Positions 840 through 45,748 of a stretch of 64,000 nt of DNA are shown here, one piece after another. The notes below the pieces were generated by a model. That model was given only the letters and a program-made list of their open reading frames with translations. It ran no database searches and had not been told where the DNA came from. This DNA is from Candidatus Bipolaricaulota bacterium (GTDB lineage: Bacteria; Bipolaricaulota; Bipolaricaulia; UBA7950; UBA9294): contig JANQEA010000035.1 of the NCBI GenBank assembly GCA_028278555.1, positions 88,089-152,088 of the forward strand, read 5' to 3'. The position numbers were made by a program, and so were the translations under genes. Positions within the stretch are counted from its first letter, which is position 1; every line of letters starts with the position of its first letter.

Positions 840-2720
840 CTACGGCATGCGATGTGCCTCGATGTACAGGTCGACCTGGCGCGCGACGACGTCGAGCGGA
901 ATCCCGCCGGACCCGAGGATCACGTCGTGGAACGCCTGCAGCGAGAAGACGTCGCCGAGCTCCGCCTCGGCCTTGCTCCGGAGCGATTCGAGGGTCAGCT
1001 TGCCGACCATGTAGCTGCATGCCTGGCCGGGAAGGACGACGTACCGCTCGATCGATCCAAGGAGCGCGCCAGGCGGGAACCCGCGAAGACTTTCGAGATA
1101 GCTCGATGCCTGGTCGCGCGTCCATCCGAGAGCGTGGATCCCCGTGTCGACGACCAGACGCGCCGCCCGGAGGAGCTCCAGATCGAGCCGGTAGAGGTTC
1201 GCCAGCGGACGCCCTTCGTAGAGACCGAGCTCGTATCCGAGCTGTTCGCAGTAGAGCGCCCAGCCCTCGACAAACCCGTCGGTCTCAAGGATCCGCATGA
1301 ACAGCGGGACGTTCAGCTCCTGCGCCAGGGACAGCTGCAGATGGTGACCAGGGATCCCCTCATGGTGCAGGATGCAGAGCATCTGAGACTCGGGGGTCGG
1401 CGCCATCGAGGCGACGTTGAAGACGCCGGGGCGCGCTCCGTCCCAGGATGGCCGGTTGTACGAATTCGTGTACGTCCCCGGACCGCCAAGCCGAATCTCA
1501 AGGGCGTTCGCCGGGAGCCGGCCAAAGTGCGGTCCGACCACGGTTTTCGTTTCATCGAGCAATTCGCGAAACTTCGCCACGAGCGCGTCGGCTTGTTCGG
1601 GGTCGGACGGATCGTAGAGCGTGTCTGCGGCTTCGGCCTGCTCCCACAGCTCGCCGATGCTCAGATCCGTGTCGTACCCCAGTTCGTCGAAGCCGGCCCG
1701 GATCCGAGCGAGCAGGTCGTCGACGAGCTCGCGGCCGAGCTGATGGAGCTCGGCAGGAGAGACATCGACCGACGTTTCATGGTGCAGCCGGTATGCGTAG
1801 TAGGCCTGCCCGTCGGCGAACGTCGCCGCGCCGCCCTCCTCAGGCGCGTTCGGCATCCGATTGAGAATCGCTTCCCGGAGCGTCCAGTAACCGGCCAGGA
1901 ACCCATCGCGGAAACCGGCGAGCGCGTCCTCTCGCGCCGCCTCGCGCTCCGTCTCCGTCAGTCCGTCGATGGCGGCCAGATCCCGATCGAAACGCTTGAA
2001 TGCCGGAATCGACTCGACCGGAACCTCGGAACGCGTAGCCGGCTTCTCTTCGCCCAGGCCGAGGGCCAAATCGATCTGCCCGAGGCAGCCCTCGAGCATG
2101 TAGCGTGGCGTGTGCAGTCCGATCGACTCCTGGAAGGCGAACGTATCGAGCACGGCGGACATTCGGGCCGGAATCTGCTCCAGCCGAGAGAGGTAGTCCT
2201 CGATGTCGGTCCGGTCCGTCAGCGGCTGCACCCAGCTGAACAGGATGTTCATCCCGCTCGGGATGCTGTAGCCGAAGAAGCCGTGCAGCGGGTAGGCGTG
2301 GCGCTCGTAGGCGTAGCCTTCGATCCGATCCTCGAGGAACCACGCGTATGCGTCGTACCAGGTCACCTCCGGTTCGCCGAGTGAATCGCGATCGTACGTC
2401 CGGAGCAACTCGAGGATCGCACGATCGAACGCGAAACGCTCCTCGATTCCCGCCTGCGAGATGTCGGTCAGCTCGTCGTCTCGCATCCCGAATGACTCCG
2501 AGAGGCCGAGGAAGGTCACCGTCTCGGGGTCGAGGAGGAGGGCTCGCCGGAACGAGGCGTCGAGAAACGCCTCGAACGGAAGTCCACGGAGCGACTCGAT
2601 CGGGTCTTCCGTCAGGGCAACCGGTCGGGCTTCGCCCGAATCACGCAGATGCGATCCGACACCCAGAAAGACGAGCGGAACGAGCACAAGGGCCAACAGA
2701 ATCCACGGAATGGCTTTCAT
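840..2720 (-). CDS. Exported DUF885 family protein (peptidase-like), copy 1
   Basis: A 626-residue protein with an N-terminal hydrophobic signal segment (about residues 5-22) and the DUF885 body. The family hallmark HHEGIPGHHLQ lies at about residues 452-462 and resembles a zinc-metallopeptidase motif. DUF885 proteins are usually 550-620 aa and treated as putative exported metallopeptidases; a substrate cannot be assigned. The start ATG has AGGAGG eight bases upstream. A second exported DUF885 gene lies at 43922-45748 on the other strand; they share the motif and overall length but are clearly diverged. The gene stands alone between the DUF3795 and flavoprotein genes. Confidence 0.88.
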   Translation of the reverse strand: MKAIPWILLALVLVPLVFLGVGSHLRDSGEARPVALTEDPIESLRGLPFEAFLDASFRRALLLDPETVTFLGLSESFGMRDDELTDISQAGIEERFAFDRAILELLRTYDRDSLGEPEVTWYDAYAWFLEDRIEGYAYERHAYPLHGFFGYSIPSGMNILFSWVQPLTDRTDIEDYLSRLEQIPARMSAVLDTFAFQESIGLHTPRYMLEGCLGQIDLALGLGEEKPATRSEVPVESIPAFKRFDRDLAAIDGLTETEREAAREDALAGFRDGFLAGYWTLREAILNRMPNAPEEGGAATFADGQAYYAYRLHHETSVDVSPAELHQLGRELVDDLLARIRAGFDELGYDTDLSIGELWEQAEAADTLYDPSDPEQADALVAKFRELLDETKTVVGPHFGRLPANALEIRLGGPGTYTNSYNRPSWDGARPGVFNVASMAPTPESQMLCILHHEGIPGHHLQLSLAQELNVPLFMRILETDGFVEGWALYCEQLGYELGLYEGRPLANLYRLDLELLRAARLVVDTGIHALGWTRDQASSYLESLRGFPPGALLGSIERYVVLPGQACSYMVGKLTLESLRSKAEAELGDVFSLQAFHDVILGSGGIPLDVVARQVDLYIEAHRMP

Positions 2721-37085: not shown

Positions 37086-37346
37086 ATGGCGATCGAGCTT
37101 CCTAACGAGACGAAGGAGCAGCTGCTCTCGTCGATCGTGCGTTTCTTCGAGGAGCGTTTCGAGCAGGAGATCGGTGATCTGAAGTCGTCCCTCCTCCTCG
37201 ACTACGTCCTGAAGGAGATCGGGCCGTCCATCTACAACACCGGTGTCGCTGATGCGCAGGCACGGATGAGTGAGATGGTCGACGAGATCGACGCGACCTG
37301 CTACGAGCCCGAATTCGCTTACTGGGAGAAGAAACCGTCGTCATGA
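37086..37346 (+). CDS. DUF2164 family protein
   Basis: An 86-residue protein matching DUF2164 over its length: residues 18-46 (VRFFEERFEQEIGDLKSSLL...KEIGPSIYNTGV in outline) and a C-terminal CYEPEFAYW. The family is small, cytoplasmic and uncharacterised. It is tightly spaced after the parvulin gene and its stop overlaps the ATG of the following GNAT gene, so translation is probably coupled. Confidence 0.88.
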   Translation: MAIELPNETKEQLLSSIVRFFEERFEQEIGDLKSSLLLDYVLKEIGPSIYNTGVADAQARMSEMVDEIDATCYEPEFAYWEKKPSS

Positions 37347-37870
37347 TCCGACTCGAGACCGAGCGGTTGCGGCTGAGACCGATCCAATCGGAGGATGTCG
37401 AACCCCTCGTCGATCTGTGGACCGATCCCGAGGTGACACGATTCATGGGCGGGCCGCGGGATGGAACGCAGCTGAAGACATGGTTCGAGGAGGATGTCAT
37501 CGAGCCGGCACCGGATCCTCACGACCTCTGGCCAGTCGAGGAGATCGCGACCGGTCAGGTGATCGGCCATTGCGGTCTCCTCGACAAGGAGATCGAGGGC
37601 GAAACGGAGATCGAGCTGACCTACGTCTTCGCCGTGCCGGCGTGGGGGAAGGGCTTCGCGACGGAGATCGCTGTCGCACTCCGGGATCACGCGTTCGAGA
37701 AGATGGGAATCACACGGCTGATCGCGCTGATCGATCCGGACAACGGAGCTTCGCAGCGAATCGCCGAGAAAGTCGGGATGCGGTTCGAACGGGATCTCGT
37801 CCGCCCCGGCGGCGCGATCCGAAGGCTGTACGCGGTGACCGTCGGAGAGAAGCCCGACGCGAAACCGTGA
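37343..37870 (+). CDS. GNAT family N-acetyltransferase (RimJ/RimL type)
   Basis: A 175-residue GNAT of the RimJ/RimL branch. It starts MIRLETERLRLRPIQSED, has VIGHCGLLDKEIEGETEIELTYVF in the core, the acetyl-CoA loop PAWGKGFATEIAVALRDHAF and the end NGASQRIAEKVGMRFERD. Members acetylate N-terminal amines of ribosomal proteins or small molecules; the substrate here is unknown. Its ATG overlaps the DUF2164 stop and its stop overlaps the GTG of the methyltransferase gene. Confidence 0.9.
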   Translation: MIRLETERLRLRPIQSEDVEPLVDLWTDPEVTRFMGGPRDGTQLKTWFEEDVIEPAPDPHDLWPVEEIATGQVIGHCGLLDKEIEGETEIELTYVFAVPAWGKGFATEIAVALRDHAFEKMGITRLIALIDPDNGASQRIAEKVGMRFERDLVRPGGAIRRLYAVTVGEKPDAKP

Positions 37871-38508
37871 GTCGATCGACAAGCGCCCACGGCCTGCGAG
37901 ATCGACTTCGGGCAGCGTACGACGCGATGGCCGAGGCGCGCGACCGTCATGACCTTCCCGCGTGGAAGCGGGACGTTCGGGCGTCCTTCTTGGCCCTTAT
38001 TCAGCAAGAAGGGGCGACTCGGCTGCTCGAGATCGGTGCCGGCACGGGACGCGACGGCGCCTTCTTCGCCGAACATGGGCTTGACGTCGTCTGCATCGAT
38101 CTCTCACCGGAGATGGTCCGTCTCTGTCGCGAGAAGGGGCTGGAGGCGGAGGTGATGGACGTCGCCGATCTTCGGTTCCCGGGCAACTCCTTCGGCGCCG
38201 TCTACGCGCTGAACTGCTTCCTCCATCTTCCGACGAGCGAACTCCCGGACGCGCTTCGCGAGGTTCATCGGATCCTCCGCCCGGGTGGCCTATTCTTCCT
38301 CGGCGTCTACGGCGGCATCGACCAAGAGGGCGTCTGGGAAGAGGATACCTACGAGCCGAAGCGGTTCTTCTCGCTTCAGACCGACGAGCACCTCCTGGAC
38401 AGCGTCCGGACGTTCTTCGACCTCGTCTCGTTCGATCGGATCTCCGTAGCATCCGAAGCCCCGCGGATCCACTTCCAATCGCTTATCCTCCGGAAGACGG
38501 TGAGCTAG
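37867..38508 (+). CDS. Class I SAM-dependent methyltransferase
   Basis: A 213-residue methyltransferase with motif I LLEIGAGTGRDGAFFAEHG (about residues 56-74), the acidic end of beta-2 in VVCIDLSPEMV, and the LREVHRILRPGGLFFLGVYG region after beta-4. The GTG start overlaps the preceding GNAT stop. A small-molecule substrate is likely but cannot be specified. It is followed 18 bases later by the AAC(3)-GNAT fusion. Confidence 0.9.
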   Translation: MSRSTSAHGLRDRLRAAYDAMAEARDRHDLPAWKRDVRASFLALIQQEGATRLLEIGAGTGRDGAFFAEHGLDVVCIDLSPEMVRLCREKGLEAEVMDVADLRFPGNSFGAVYALNCFLHLPTSELPDALREVHRILRPGGLFFLGVYGGIDQEGVWEEDTYEPKRFFSLQTDEHLLDSVRTFFDLVSFDRISVASEAPRIHFQSLILRKTVS

Positions 38509-38526
38509 CACCGGAAGGAGGTTCGG

Positions 38527-39804
38527 ATGACCGAGCGCGATGCCATCGAACGGACGGATCGACCGATCACGGTCGACGCTCTCGTCGAGGATCTGAAGGA
38601 TCTCGGCGTAGAGAGCGGATCGACGCTCCTCGTCCACGCGTCGCTCAGCGCGGTCGACTGGGTCTGCGGCGGCGCGGTCGCCGTGATCCTCGCGTTGGAG
38701 AAGGTCCTCGGCGAAGAGGGCACGCTCGTGATGCCGACGATGTCCGGAGATCTGACCGATCCACGCGACTGGCAGCATCCTCCCGTCCCCGAGGACTGGA
38801 AGGAGACGATCCGCGCTGCGATGCCCCCGTTCGATCCGAATCTCACCCCAACGCGGAGCATGGGTGCGATCGCCGAGACGTTCCGGACGCAGCCCGGCAC
38901 AGTGAGGAGCGGACACCCGCACGCCTCGTTCGCCGCCCGCGGCCCGCTGGCAACACGGATCACCGGCGATCACGCACTTGACTATGCCCTCGGGGAAGGG
39001 TCGCCGCTCGCGCGGATGTACGAGCACGATGGGCGCGTTCTCCTTCTCGGCGTCGGGCATGCGAACAACACGTCGCTCCACCTCGCCGAGTACCGGGCGG
39101 ACTTCCCGGGGAAGCGCGAGCGGCCGAACGGGGCGCCGTTGATCGTCGACGGGGTCCGCCGGTGGGTCGACGTCCTCGATCTCGATGTCAACGCGTCGGA
39201 TTTCCCGCGAATCGGCGACGCGTTCGCGCGGGAGACCGACCTCGTCCGGACAGGTCAAATCGGGAACGCAACCGCCCTCCTAATGCCGCAGCGCACCCTG
39301 GTCGATTTCGCCGTCGGCTGGATGGAGGCACATCGCGGTCGGAGCGATGAAGGACCGGCCGCGTTGATCCGACCGGTCACTTCGGCCGATCGAGACGAGT
39401 GGATCCGCCTTCGCTGCGTTCTCTGGCCGCATCGCGACCCGGCAGAGCTCGCAGCCGAAGTCGACGAGATGACCGTCGACCTGGAGGCTTCTCCGGTCTT
39501 CGTCGCTGTTCGCCCCGACGGTGGACTCTGCGGTCTGATCGAGGCCGCGATCCGCGACGGCGCCGTCGGATGTTCGACCGATCGGGTCGGCTATCTCGAG
39601 GCCTGGTACGTCGAACCCGCGTGGCGCTGGTGTGGGATCGGTCGAACACTTGTCGAGCAAGCCGAGGCATGGGCCCGTGCTCAGGGCTGCGCCGAGATGG
39701 CCTCCGACACGAACCCTCGGTACCCGCTCAGTCCGGCCGCTCACGAGGCGCTCGGCTACCGCGTCGTCAAGCGGAAGACCCACTTCCGGAAGGCACTCGA
39801 CTGA
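38527..39804 (+). CDS. AAC(3)-family / AAC(6')-like GNAT fusion acetyltransferase
   Basis: A 425-residue two-domain protein. Residues ~12-270 are an Antibiotic_NAT (AAC(3)-II/III/IV type) domain: [42 protein letters not shown] and the His185-x-x-Glu188 pair in SLHLAEYR. Residues ~280-425 are a GNAT resembling AAC(6'): [21 protein letters not shown], the acetyl-CoA loop [19 protein letters not shown] and [20 protein letters not shown]. Each alone would be of normal length. Together they suggest 3-N and 6'-N acetylation of aminoglycosides or of a related natural substrate. The ATG has GGAAGGAGG upstream. No integron or transposon surrounds it and codon use is native. Confidence 0.88.
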
Positions 39805-42046: not shown

Positions 42047-42123
42047 GATAGACGCCTAGGTTTCCACGTCATAGCTTGGATGCAAGGTGGTTGATGAGTA
42101 TCCTGACTGGAGAGGTGATAGAC

Positions 42124-42612
42124 ATGGCAGATCCACTGTTCGATCGTCCGGCGTTCATCGAGAAGGTCCGACAGATCTTCGCGTCGCTCGAGCCGCTCCT
42201 CCCCGAGGGAGACGCATTCGACTACGAGGAGACCGCTCTCTTCAGCGGCGTCGTCAACGAGTCGCAGGAACATCTGGTCATCGTACCGATGACGCGGGAT
42301 TCGGTCTCGATCCAGAAGGGCTTCACCCTCGGAGAACAGGAGTCTTGGGCCGATGTCGGAACCCTGTCGGCCTTCGCCTTCCTTGTGATGCCTCCGACCG
42401 ACTGCATCCATACCGTTTCGTATGACGTCCCGTACCTCGTTCGCGGGACCTCATGGAACGAGGCGGACGTCGTCGACGAGCACAACACGGTCATCAGGCA
42501 GTTCGTCACGTGGTGGCACCGCGGAGAGCCGCAGAAGCAGTTCTACAAGTTCTACGGTAACGCAGTCATCCACATCAGCAACTGCGACACCGTCTCGATG
42601 AACCAACAGTAG
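42124..42612 (+). CDS. Hypothetical cytoplasmic protein
   Basis: A 162-residue protein with no recognised family. It begins MADPLFDRPAFIEKVRQIFAS, has a central HLVIVPMTRDSVSIQKGF and ends with a Trp/Lys-rich stretch (QFVTWWHRGEPQKQFYKFYG). No signal peptide or membrane segment. The ATG at 42124 was chosen because GGAGAGG precedes it; an in-frame start 48 bases earlier has no such support. Eleven bases separate its stop from the PCMT-like methyltransferase gene, so they are probably co-transcribed. Confidence 0.6.
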   Translation: MADPLFDRPAFIEKVRQIFASLEPLLPEGDAFDYEETALFSGVVNESQEHLVIVPMTRDSVSIQKGFTLGEQESWADVGTLSAFAFLVMPPTDCIHTVSYDVPYLVRGTSWNEADVVDEHNTVIRQFVTWWHRGEPQKQFYKFYGNAVIHISNCDTVSMNQQ

Positions 42613-42623
42613 AATCGGTCGAC

Positions 42624-43841
42624 ATGGATGCGGTGCCGGAATCGTACGTTTCGTGTCTCGTCGAGCGGTGGGGGGCGATCTCTGAGCCCGTCGAACGCGC
42701 GTTTCGGACGGTTCGACGCCATCGATTCGTGGACGGATGGTACCACCTGGAGGCCACAAACCTCCGGGTGGCCTTCCATCCGGTCGATTACGATCCGGAT
42801 CACCCGGCGCCGGAGCAGCTCGACGAGATCTACTCCGATGTGGCTCTGATCACCGCTTTCGATGATTTCTTGCCGACGAGCTCGACCTCTCAACCCACGC
42901 TGGTCGTCCGGATGCTCGAGCTACTCGAGCTTCGACCGGAGATGCGCGTCCTCGAGATCGGGACCGGAACCGGGTACAACGCGGCCCTTCTCGCCGAAAT
43001 CGTCGGCCCGGAAGGCGCTGTGCACACCGTCGAGATCCAAGAGGAGGTCGCGCGGAAGGCGAGCCAACACCTGCAGGGAGAGGGATACACCGATGTCCGG
43101 GTCTTCCATCGCGACGGCTACCTCGGCGTCCCCGACGCTGCTCCGTTCGACAGGATCGTCGCGACCGTCGGCTGCTCTTCTCTCTCTTCCCATTGGGTCG
43201 AGCAGCTCGCCCCAGGCGGATGGATGCTCGTTCCGCTTCGTCACGGACTCCGGGATCCTCTCGTCCGGATCGAGCGTCGCGTGGATCGTCCCGAATGCGC
43301 GTCCGGACGGATCGTCGGCTGGTCGACGTTCATGCCGATCTACGGCACGCTTCGATCGGCGAACTCCTGGCCCAGCTTCGCGATCCGGAGTCTCCCGAAA
43401 CACGCAACGTGGACACGCCGTCTCCCGAGCCCCCTTTCGTCCGAGTCGGCGCGGACAGGACACCCTCTCGAACACCCGATCCACAGGGCCATTCACTTCT
43501 TCCTGACGCTTTCGTCCCGCGAGCTGTGGCCCGATGCCCGCGGCTACGGTCTCGTCGACCCGGGGAGCCGGTCGGTCCTCGTCGTCACGCAGGATGCCGT
43601 GGAGGGGTTCAGTGCAACGGATGACGTAGCGAGCCTCGAACGCCTCTACGATCGATTCCACCGGCTCGTGGAGACCTGGGATCAATGTGGCCAGCCAGCG
43701 CCAGAGGACTTCTCTATCGAGTTCGTCCCGTTCGGACACTTCGAGTTCATCGAGTCGGAGCCGGAGATGGAATGGATCATCGAACGGCACGATTTTCACG
43801 AAATTATCCATCTCCCGGCGAAACGCGACCGCCCCGAATAG
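42624..43841 (+). CDS. Protein-L-isoaspartate O-methyltransferase (PCMT)-like protein with C-terminal extension
   Basis: A 405-residue protein. The N-terminal ~220 residues are a PCMT domain: FRTVRRHRFVDGWY, TSSTSQPTLVVRMLELLEL (the PCMT substrate motif), motif I VLEIGTGTGYNAALLAEI and PFDRIVATVG, ending LAPGGWMLVPL. PCMTs repair isoaspartate in damaged proteins and are usually ~210-220 aa. Here a ~185-residue extension of unknown fold follows (WPDARGYGLVDPGSRSVLVVT). Extended PCMT-like proteins also occur as peptide-maturation methyltransferases, so repair is likely but not certain. Confidence 0.85.
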   Translation: MDAVPESYVSCLVERWGAISEPVERAFRTVRRHRFVDGWYHLEATNLRVAFHPVDYDPDHPAPEQLDEIYSDVALITAFDDFLPTSSTSQPTLVVRMLELLELRPEMRVLEIGTGTGYNAALLAEIVGPEGAVHTVEIQEEVARKASQHLQGEGYTDVRVFHRDGYLGVPDAAPFDRIVATVGCSSLSSHWVEQLAPGGWMLVPLRHGLRDPLVRIERRVDRPECASGRIVGWSTFMPIYGTLRSANSWPSFAIRSLPKHATWTRRLPSPLSSESARTGHPLEHPIHRAIHFFLTLSSRELWPDARGYGLVDPGSRSVLVVTQDAVEGFSATDDVASLERLYDRFHRLVETWDQCGQPAPEDFSIEFVPFGHFEFIESEPEMEWIIERHDFHEIIHLPAKRDRPE

Positions 43842-43921: not shown

Positions 43922-45748
43922 ATGCGCAGTCTCCTCTGGCTGCTTCCGGCATTGATCCTCGGCCTGGCCCTCTTCGGCGGACAGGCGGCTAGCGACAACT
44001 CCACATCACCCGCACCAGCGTGGGCTCCCCCCGCCTTCAGCGACATCGAGGCTGAGCTCGCCGGCCTTGAGTTCGATGCGTTCATCGAGACCTCATATCG
44101 TCTGCATCGCTTGCGTTTTCCGCAATCGATCACGCACCTGGGGCTCGCCGACGCCTTCGGCGCCCGCAACGACCGACTCGACGACTACTCGTCGGAGTAC
44201 GTGGCGGAGACGCATCGAATCGAGCGGTTCATCCTCGACCGCCTTCGTGCGTTCGACCGAGATGCCCTCTCCAAAGAGCAGCGGCTCACCTACGATGTCG
44301 CCGAGTGGATCTGGGATGACACGGTTCGCGGACAGGCGTTCGCCGACCTCGACTATCTCGTCACGCACTTCTACATCACGAGCCGCGACTGGGCGGTGTA
44401 CGACCTGTTGGTCAAGGTCCATCCCCTGGGCAACATCGCGGATGCCGAGGACTACGTGGCTCGACTGGCGGAGATCGGCCGGCAGTTCGACCAGCTGATC
44501 GAAGGGATGGATGCCCGCGCCGATCGAGGAATCGTCGCGCCGAGAGTCGTCCTGAATCAGGCGATCTCGTCGATCTCTGGGCTCGTCAACGCCCCGGCGC
44601 TCTACCACCCGTTCTACGCCCGTCTGCGCGACCGGCTTCCGGGCATTCCCGGGGTGACAAGCGATCGGCACAACGAACTCCTCGCCGAGGCGGAGACCCA
44701 TCTCGAAGAGACCGTCCTTCCGGCCTACCGGAAGCTCTACAACAAGCTCATCGCTCTCCGAGAGATCGCACCTGACACTCTCGGATACGGAGATCAGCCG
44801 AACGGAGACGCCTACTACGATTACGCGCTCCGCCATCAGAACCAGACCGAGTTGACGGCGACGGAGATCCACGAGATCGGACTGCAGCAGGTCGCCCGAC
44901 TCCAGGAGGAGATCGGAGCGGCCGCCGCCGCACTCGGGTACGACGAGGGAACGCCGATCCCGGCGATCTACCGCCGGGTATCGCGCGAAGGCGGATCGTT
45001 CTCCGGAGCGGCAATCGTTGCCGAGTACGAACGACTTCTCGCCGACGCAAGAGAAAGGGCAAGCGACGTCTTCGAGAGATTCCCGTCGATCCCGGTCGAG
45101 ATCATCGGCGACGACTTCGGAGGCTACTACCGCCCTGCCCCGACCGACGGCTCCAGGCCGGCTCAGTTCGTCGCGCCGAACAGCGGATCGCAGCCTCGCT
45201 ATCCGATGCCGACGCTCACCTATCACGAGACGATCCCCGGCCATCACATGCAGATCGCCACGGCGGGAGAGCTCGGCCTCCCGCTCCTTCGGACGACCGC
45301 AGAGCTCCTCGGATACGTCGAAGGATGGGCGCTCTACTCGGAGCGACTCGCCTGGGAACTCGGATGGTACGCCGACGATCCCTACGGGGACCTCGGACGG
45401 CTTTCGGACGAGATGATGCGAGCGACCCGACTCGTCGTCGATACCGGGATTCACGTGATGGGATGGTCGTTCGACGAAGCAGTCGACTACTTCGTCGAGA
45501 ACACCGGCCGGCCGCGAGCGTTCGCTCAAGGGCAGATCCTCCGCTACGCCGTCTGGCCGGGGCAGTCAACGTCCTACATGATTGGCTTCCTGGCAATGCT
45601 CGACCTGCGAGAACGAGTCCGCGACGCCTTGGGCGAGGAGTTCGACCTCGCAGCGTACCACACGATGATCCTCGAGAATGGGAGCCTTCCGTTGGCGGTT
45701 CTCGAACAGATCGTCGACCGATTCATCGAGGAGGCGACAGGCGACTAG
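43922..45748 (+). CDS. Exported DUF885 family protein (peptidase-like), copy 2
   Basis: A 608-residue protein with a signal peptide (LLWLLPALILGLALFGGQA) and the DUF885 body, including the motif YHETIPGHHMQIATAGEL (about residues 436-453) and EGWALYSERLAWELGWY. It is paralogous to the gene at 840-2720 (shared motif, length and the VDTGIHxxGW region). Putative exported metallopeptidase. The ATG at 43922 has AAGGAG eight bases upstream; the open frame continuing 5' overlaps the PCMT gene and is not used. It converges on the RIO kinase with seven bases between. Confidence 0.9.
   Translation: MRSLLWLLPALILGLALFGGQAASDNSTSPAPAWAPPAFSDIEAELAGLEFDAFIETSYRLHRLRFPQSITHLGLADAFGARNDRLDDYSSEYVAETHRIERFILDRLRAFDRDALSKEQRLTYDVAEWIWDDTVRGQAFADLDYLVTHFYITSRDWAVYDLLVKVHPLGNIADAEDYVARLAEIGRQFDQLIEGMDARADRGIVAPRVVLNQAISSISGLVNAPALYHPFYARLRDRLPGIPGVTSDRHNELLAEAETHLEETVLPAYRKLYNKLIALREIAPDTLGYGDQPNGDAYYDYALRHQNQTELTATEIHEIGLQQVARLQEEIGAAAAALGYDEGTPIPAIYRRVSREGGSFSGAAIVAEYERLLADARERASDVFERFPSIPVEIIGDDFGGYYRPAPTDGSRPAQFVAPNSGSQPRYPMPTLTYHETIPGHHMQIATAGELGLPLLRTTAELLGYVEGWALYSERLAWELGWYADDPYGDLGRLSDEMMRATRLVVDTGIHVMGWSFDEAVDYFVENTGRPRAFAQGQILRYAVWPGQSTSYMIGFLAMLDLRERVRDALGEEFDLAAYHTMILENGSLPLAVLEQIVDRFIEEATGD

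Follow-up and report, generated by a model that had tools for sequence, protein, structure and literature searches.

Four bifunctional aminoglycoside-modifying enzymes, AAC(6')/APH(2''), AAC(3)-Ib/AAC(6')-Ib', ANT(3'')-Ii/AAC(6')-IId and AAC(6')-30/AAC(6')-Ib', are known according to PMC3675766, and an overlapping list that includes AAC(3)-Ib/AAC(6')-Ib' appears in PMC6017855. The second and fourth of these join two acetyltransferases in one frame and, to judge from reference titles, were reported from integrons. The gene described here, located on a stretch of 64,000 nucleotides from a Candidatus Bipolaricaulota genome (GCA_028278555.1, contig JANQEA010000035.1, positions 88,089 to 152,088; hereafter the window), likewise codes for two acetyltransferase lobes in one frame, but the first of them is of the Antibiotic_NAT type and only the second is a GNAT. 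To our knowledge, none of the four bifunctional enzymes has an Antibiotic_NAT lobe, and the lobes of the two double acetyltransferases are presumably all GNATs.

The closest described relatives of the first lobe are FrbF from phosphonate biosynthesis (PDB 3sma), YokD (2nyg) and BA2930 (3ijw). They share fold, catalytic motif and tree branch with the fusion, but are single-lobe proteins with chain lengths of 265-286 and lack a GNAT; all three were reported to be inactive on aminoglycosides (PMC8956665). The second lobe shares fold and residues with AAC(6')-I enzymes (AAC(6')-Iy, PDB 1s3z, as well as Ih, Ig and Il), which stand alone. A two-domain clone from apple-orchard soil (Donato et al. 2010) may or may not have the same architecture, since its folds are not stated in the available part of PMC4485178. 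The initial annotation of the window had named many already described proteins of this architecture as something that would refute its proposal. Many do occur in databases, but the literature searched gave no description of this exact fold pair, and nothing on such a fusion was found by title in the literature on Bipolaricaulota and aminoglycosides.

The frame of 425 amino acids runs from its ATG (38527) to its stop codon (39804) without internal stop. Pfam matches to Antibiotic_NAT (residues 35-267, E 1.7e-93) and Acetyltransf_1 (residues 298-397, E 3.1e-12) both lie in it, as do the motifs quoted in the initial annotation, which had rightly read a single protein joining an AAC(3)-fold domain to an AAC(6')-like GNAT. 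Sequence and structure model agree on the two folds. Its GC content at third codon positions (0.828 in the first half, 0.750 in the second, against 0.760-0.794 in four neighbouring genes) is consistent with the native codon use that had also been proposed.

Affinities of the two lobes

The N-terminal lobe displayed two hallmarks of AAC(3) enzymes, i.e. the Antibiotic_NAT fold and the TxPhiHPhiAE motif, which was described together with a proposed His/Glu chemistry for this family (PMC8956665). In an alignment of 49 of the 65 listed fusions of the window type (see below), H185 and E188 were kept throughout, and position 182 was T in 43, S in 5 and A in 1. Its tree position was not among the aminoglycoside-active AAC(3) branches: it grouped with FrbF, YokD and BA2930 (92/81), apart from AAC(3)-IIe/VIa (100/99), AAC(3)-IVa forming a long branch of unsure place. 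This tree comprised 11 of the 65 listed fusions, 14 of the 55 listed unfused relatives, five second-type loci (see below) and four unfused genome proteins; loci L003-L008, L014, L015 and L017 were left out. FrbF, YokD and BA2930 were also the closest solved relatives by sequence, and in fold comparison BA2930 and YokD led, with FrbF tied with AAC(3)-IIIa by Z. The equivalog cut-off of the NCBIfam model AAC_3 (270 bits) was not reached by any of the three window-type fusions scanned (215.5 bits for the window protein, 204.2 for P0044 and 198.6 for P0068). On sequence grounds, the N-terminal lobe is therefore a member of the FrbF/YokD/BA2930 branch of Antibiotic_NAT and not of the AAC(3)-II/III type, the label given to it initially. 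Since the enzymes closest to this lobe are reported inactive on aminoglycosides, it is unjustified to call the fusion a double antibiotic-resistance enzyme.

Residues S111, A179, D218 and L76 occupy the places of Asp94 and Asp162 of meta-AAC0038 and of Glu185 and Asp67 of AAC(3)-IVa, positions of which several also differ in AAC(3)-IIe/VIa. D218 is acidic like the Glu185 that it matches, but so is the corresponding residue of FrbF, and it is not diagnostic. A comparison of aminoglycoside-contact residues, with positions taken from PMC8956665, was dropped because active and inactive enzymes could not be told apart by it in the alignment.

The C-terminal lobe was rightly described as an AAC(6')-like GNAT. 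Its six best GNAT entries by Z were AAC(6')-Iy, Ig and Ih, its W, W, E and D positions are common to these three enzymes, and its sequence scored 77, 74 and 69 bits with AAC(6')-Iy, Ih and Ig, respectively, and was 42% identical to AAC(6')-Il. Among the 24 NCBIfam rows obtained for the whole protein, 18 were AAC(6') models and five AAC(3) models. Residues W292, W300, G372, D394 and T395 were invariant in the 49 aligned fusions, and E339 and E358 were kept in 48. The tyrosine-glutamate pair named for GNATs in PMC8956665 was not located in this lobe. The lobe remained below the cut-off of AAC_6p_group_E (105 against 140 bits), and in a tree of 122 rows it fell into a well-supported branch (100/99) comprising 26 fusion rows, eight other long proteins and six loci from Chloroflexota and Hydrogenedentota (40 rows in all), with AAC(6')-Iy, Ih and Il outside it. 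This tree, whose bootstrap had not settled, took 21 of the 65 listed fusions and five added loci (two of these identical); a weak second match of L021, the cut or broken loci L078, L080 and L089, L001 (which repeats P0001) and P0125 were left out.

Relatives of this lobe also occurred inside other long proteins: a further domain was labelled in 9 of the 12 proteins P0121-P0132, for example beta-lactamase PF00144 in P0122, ASCH in P0121 and DUF1697 in P0126. PF00300, PF00903 (which we take to be glyoxalase) and PF00581 (presumably rhodanese) were found as well in this set. This type of GNAT may be a mobile module.

Relatives of the fusion and a second fusion in the same genome

The full-length search for the same domain order, proposed as a check in the initial annotation, yielded 5747 matches (7999 candidates scored), of which the best 120 were listed. 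With our own profiles, both lobes were found in 65 of these 120, the query included. The other listed fusions were 49-78% identical to it over 97-100% of its length in 63 of 64 cases, the last one (P0074) being shorter (56% identity over 77%). When the GNAT part alone was the query, Antibiotic_NAT was also present in 29 of 41 matches (query included) and missing from 12. Identities of the two lobes correlated across all pairs of the 49 aligned fusions (r 0.88), and the lobes were therefore inherited together. The window-type fusion may or may not have a single origin: it needs two changes in both lobe trees, of which the firm branches force only one. Source names of listed relatives included Candidatus Bipolaricaulota (P0060, P0067), Thermotogota (P0057) and Planctomycetes (P0068).

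Within the phylum, 19 of 100 genomes displayed Antibiotic_NAT matches, above the cut-off in 18. The family of the window genome (33 genomes, its own included) held 12 Antibiotic_NAT proteins. Complete window-type fusions occurred in five of its genomes (G000, which is the window genome, G069, G070, G075 and G077), and a piece of one was cut at a contig end in G076. The second type described below was carried by five genomes (G000, G091, G092, G094 and G095), and a single unfused protein was recorded (G092:C37). None of seven loci examined outside the family (L011, L012, L014-L017 and L019) had a GNAT in frame with Antibiotic_NAT. In one of them, L016:1483-2801 (+) of G037, from another family of the class, an Antibiotic_NAT frame and a GNAT frame overlap in ATGA, the former stopping at its TGA and the latter starting at its ATG, and the two are possibly translationally coupled. 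Short or broken matches were all that G003, G033 and G036 contained; in G033, one genome of the class, several Antibiotic_NAT pieces were scattered over C146 and C99, three of them with an internal stop. A scan of named genomes with GNAT patterns, in which some loci were cut by contig ends and which does not bound the distribution, recorded an AAC(3) lobe at 1 of the 80 GNAT loci kept (177 confirmed), i.e. L026 from Candidatus Bipolaricaulis sp. STA_74. A window-type Antibiotic_NAT without GNAT was seen at L115:2330-3253 (+); it ends at the linker start, and the next frame lies on the opposite strand.

The window genome also codes for a second two-lobe fusion, P0133 (G000:C62:17745-18926 (-); locus L111:5716-6981 (-)). 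It displays the same lobe order and a similar length (422 amino acids) and is 35% identical to the window fusion over both lobes, but its two lobes have other affinities. Its N-terminal lobe is nearest to AAC(3)-IIIb (234 bits) and clears the AAC_3 cut-off, like that of L116 from another genome (330.9 and 332.7 bits; two of two scanned), while its GNAT falls into a separate firm branch (99/99) with weak and mixed PDB relatives (best 38 bits). Both lobes were present in 92 of the best 120 of its 417 matches (7995 candidates scored). In an alignment of 33 of these 92, the Asp94 place was acidic in 15 and the Asp162 place in one; active and inactive enzymes cannot be told apart by these positions. 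P0133, with its AAC(3)-III-like first lobe, is a better candidate than the window fusion for a true aminoglycoside enzyme. Since first lobes and GNATs of the two types both fall into separate branches, the simplest reading is that in one lineage the folds were probably joined on at least two independent occasions. PADLOC assigned no family to either fusion.

Predicted function and competing explanations

In the reading that we favour with moderate confidence, the window fusion would be a bifunctional N-acetyltransferase dependent on acetyl-CoA, with an FrbF/YokD-type lobe and an AAC(6')-I-like GNAT to cap amines at two sites, the former probably not acting on aminoglycosides. His185, aided by Glu188, would deprotonate an amine for attack on acetyl-CoA, following the family chemistry proposed in PMC8956665. 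The C-terminal lobe would acetylate an aminosugar-like or polyamine-like amine in the manner of GNATs, its site possibly serving an aminosugar. Joined by a flexible linker, each lobe would be free to turn over on its own, and the outcome would be one doubly acetylated polyamino molecule or two related acetylated molecules. The initial annotation had offered an environmental precursor or a dual modifier of another substrate: the precursor of an aminoglycoside-modifying pair loses its support together with the AAC(3)-II/III label, whereas the dual modifier fits better.

A native double aminoglycoside modifier, acting at 3-N through the first lobe and at 6'-N through the second, appears unlikely to us. 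The AAC(3) fold with its motif, the tie of AAC(3)-IIIa with FrbF in fold comparison, the W, W, E and D positions of the GNAT lobe and the acidic D218 would all agree with it; yet the grouping with FrbF, YokD and BA2930 and the missed AAC_3 and AAC_6p_group_E cut-offs point the other way, and an acid at the place of D218 is shared by FrbF. Slightly less probable still is a detoxifier directed at peptides or amino acids, in which the fusion would act on peptide-like amines by N-acetylation, together with the DUF885 and PCMT-like proteins encoded nearby. In each of the five genomes with a complete fusion, a same-strand DUF885 match does follow downstream at a distance of about 0.35 to 4.3 kb (partial in G070), and a PCMT-like gene and a small protein lie in between in G000 and, in the same order, in G075. 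The six genomes searched are related, however, and each has 3 to 8 DUF885 matches, pieces included (6 in the window genome), so that this adjacency, which may be old synteny, is a lead and not proof. Besides, a family 31 glycosidase gene on the opposite strand separates the fusion from its downstream genes in the window, comparison of neighbours at five second-type loci did not reveal such surroundings, and titles and abstracts of the literature searched gave nothing on DUF885 function.

A protein with a single enzymatic lobe, whose partner would bind substrate or CoA in a regulatory or oligomerising role, seems improbable: sister proteins without the GNAT lobe do exist, but H185 and E188 in the first lobe and W292, W300, D394 and T395 in the second are invariant in the 49 aligned fusions. 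As to a frameshift, chimera or assembly join, which the initial annotation had considered around residue 270, we give it practically no credit. No support for it was found, the same architecture recurs in 64 other listed proteins and in four other genomes, and the fusion is no chance or assembly artefact because so many of its best matches (65 of 120) have both lobes.

If both lobes of the favoured N-acetyltransferase are active, an uncultured lineage would natively and repeatedly have arrived at joining Antibiotic_NAT to GNAT, which would then not be confined to the integrons of hospitals; the protein would also offer a way to the substrates of the FrbF/YokD branch. In databases, some entries of this branch are named 'aminoglycoside 3-N-acetyltransferase'; given the reported inactivity of FrbF, YokD and BA2930 (PMC8956665), names of this kind can make metagenomes look richer in resistance than they are. 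A broader scenario is tentative and, in our opinion, rather doubtful: one lineage would have joined, on two or more independent occasions, the two unrelated folds employed against aminoglycosides and kept both fusions in one genome, the window gene serving a polyamino natural product other than an aminoglycoside and the other fusion having a true AAC(3)-III-like lobe and a second GNAT, a native double N-acetylation by two enzymes that would predate the clinical bifunctional ones.

Gene surroundings and mobility

Features of the fusion gene and its neighbourhood in the window.
Feature	Position	Strand	Basis
Fusion gene, 425 amino acids, Antibiotic_NAT lobe and GNAT lobe	38527..39804	+	open reading frame, translation, Pfam
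AAGGAGG, ribosome-binding-site-like, 5 nucleotides ahead of the fusion ATG	38515..38521	+	read from sequence
N-terminal Antibiotic_NAT lobe, residues 1-272, FrbF/YokD/BA2930 branch	38527..39342	+	Pfam, sequence, tree, fold comparison
Catalytic motif T182-S-L-H185-L-A-E188 (TxPhiHPhiAE)	39070..39090	+	motif as in PMC8956665
Linker, residues 273-277, predicted local distance difference test (pLDDT) <50	39343..39357	+	structure model
C-terminal AAC(6')-I-like GNAT lobe, residues 278-425	39358..39801	+	Pfam, NCBIfam, PDB sequence matches, tree, fold
GNAT-lobe A-S-D394-T, at the place of ASDT in AAC(6')-Iy	39700..39711	+	alignment
Separate GNAT (Acetyltransf_3), upstream of the fusion	37343..37870	+	Pfam
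Methyltransferase, start unsettled, ends 18 nucleotides ahead of the fusion	37873..38508	+	open reading frame, Pfam
Small protein, no Pfam family matched; has a 46% identical homologue close to the G075 fusion	42076..42612	+	
PCMT-like methyltransferase; has a 46% identical homologue close to the G075 fusion	42624..43841	+	Pfam
DUF885 gene, start unsettled, downstream of the fusion	43922..45748	+	Pfam

The absence of mobile elements noted initially was borne out: none of the 10 window genes scanned with Pfam (one of them without any match) matched a transposase or integrase. Likewise, none of the 3478 matching plasmid records (72,556 searched) covered 80% of the window fusion at one place; this was also the case for the second fusion with 3301 matching plasmid records and for the window fusion with 11 phage records.

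A second DUF885 gene is located in the window at 840-2720 (-). The identity of the PCMT-like protein to its counterpart near the G075 fusion (L109:3587-4795 (-)) extends over 392 residues, and no Pfam family matched the window protein after residue 221. An unfused protein with 57% identity to the N-terminal lobe is encoded on a plasmid of Deinococcus sp. QL22 (L100:1501-2295 (+)), which is typed as non-mobilizable.
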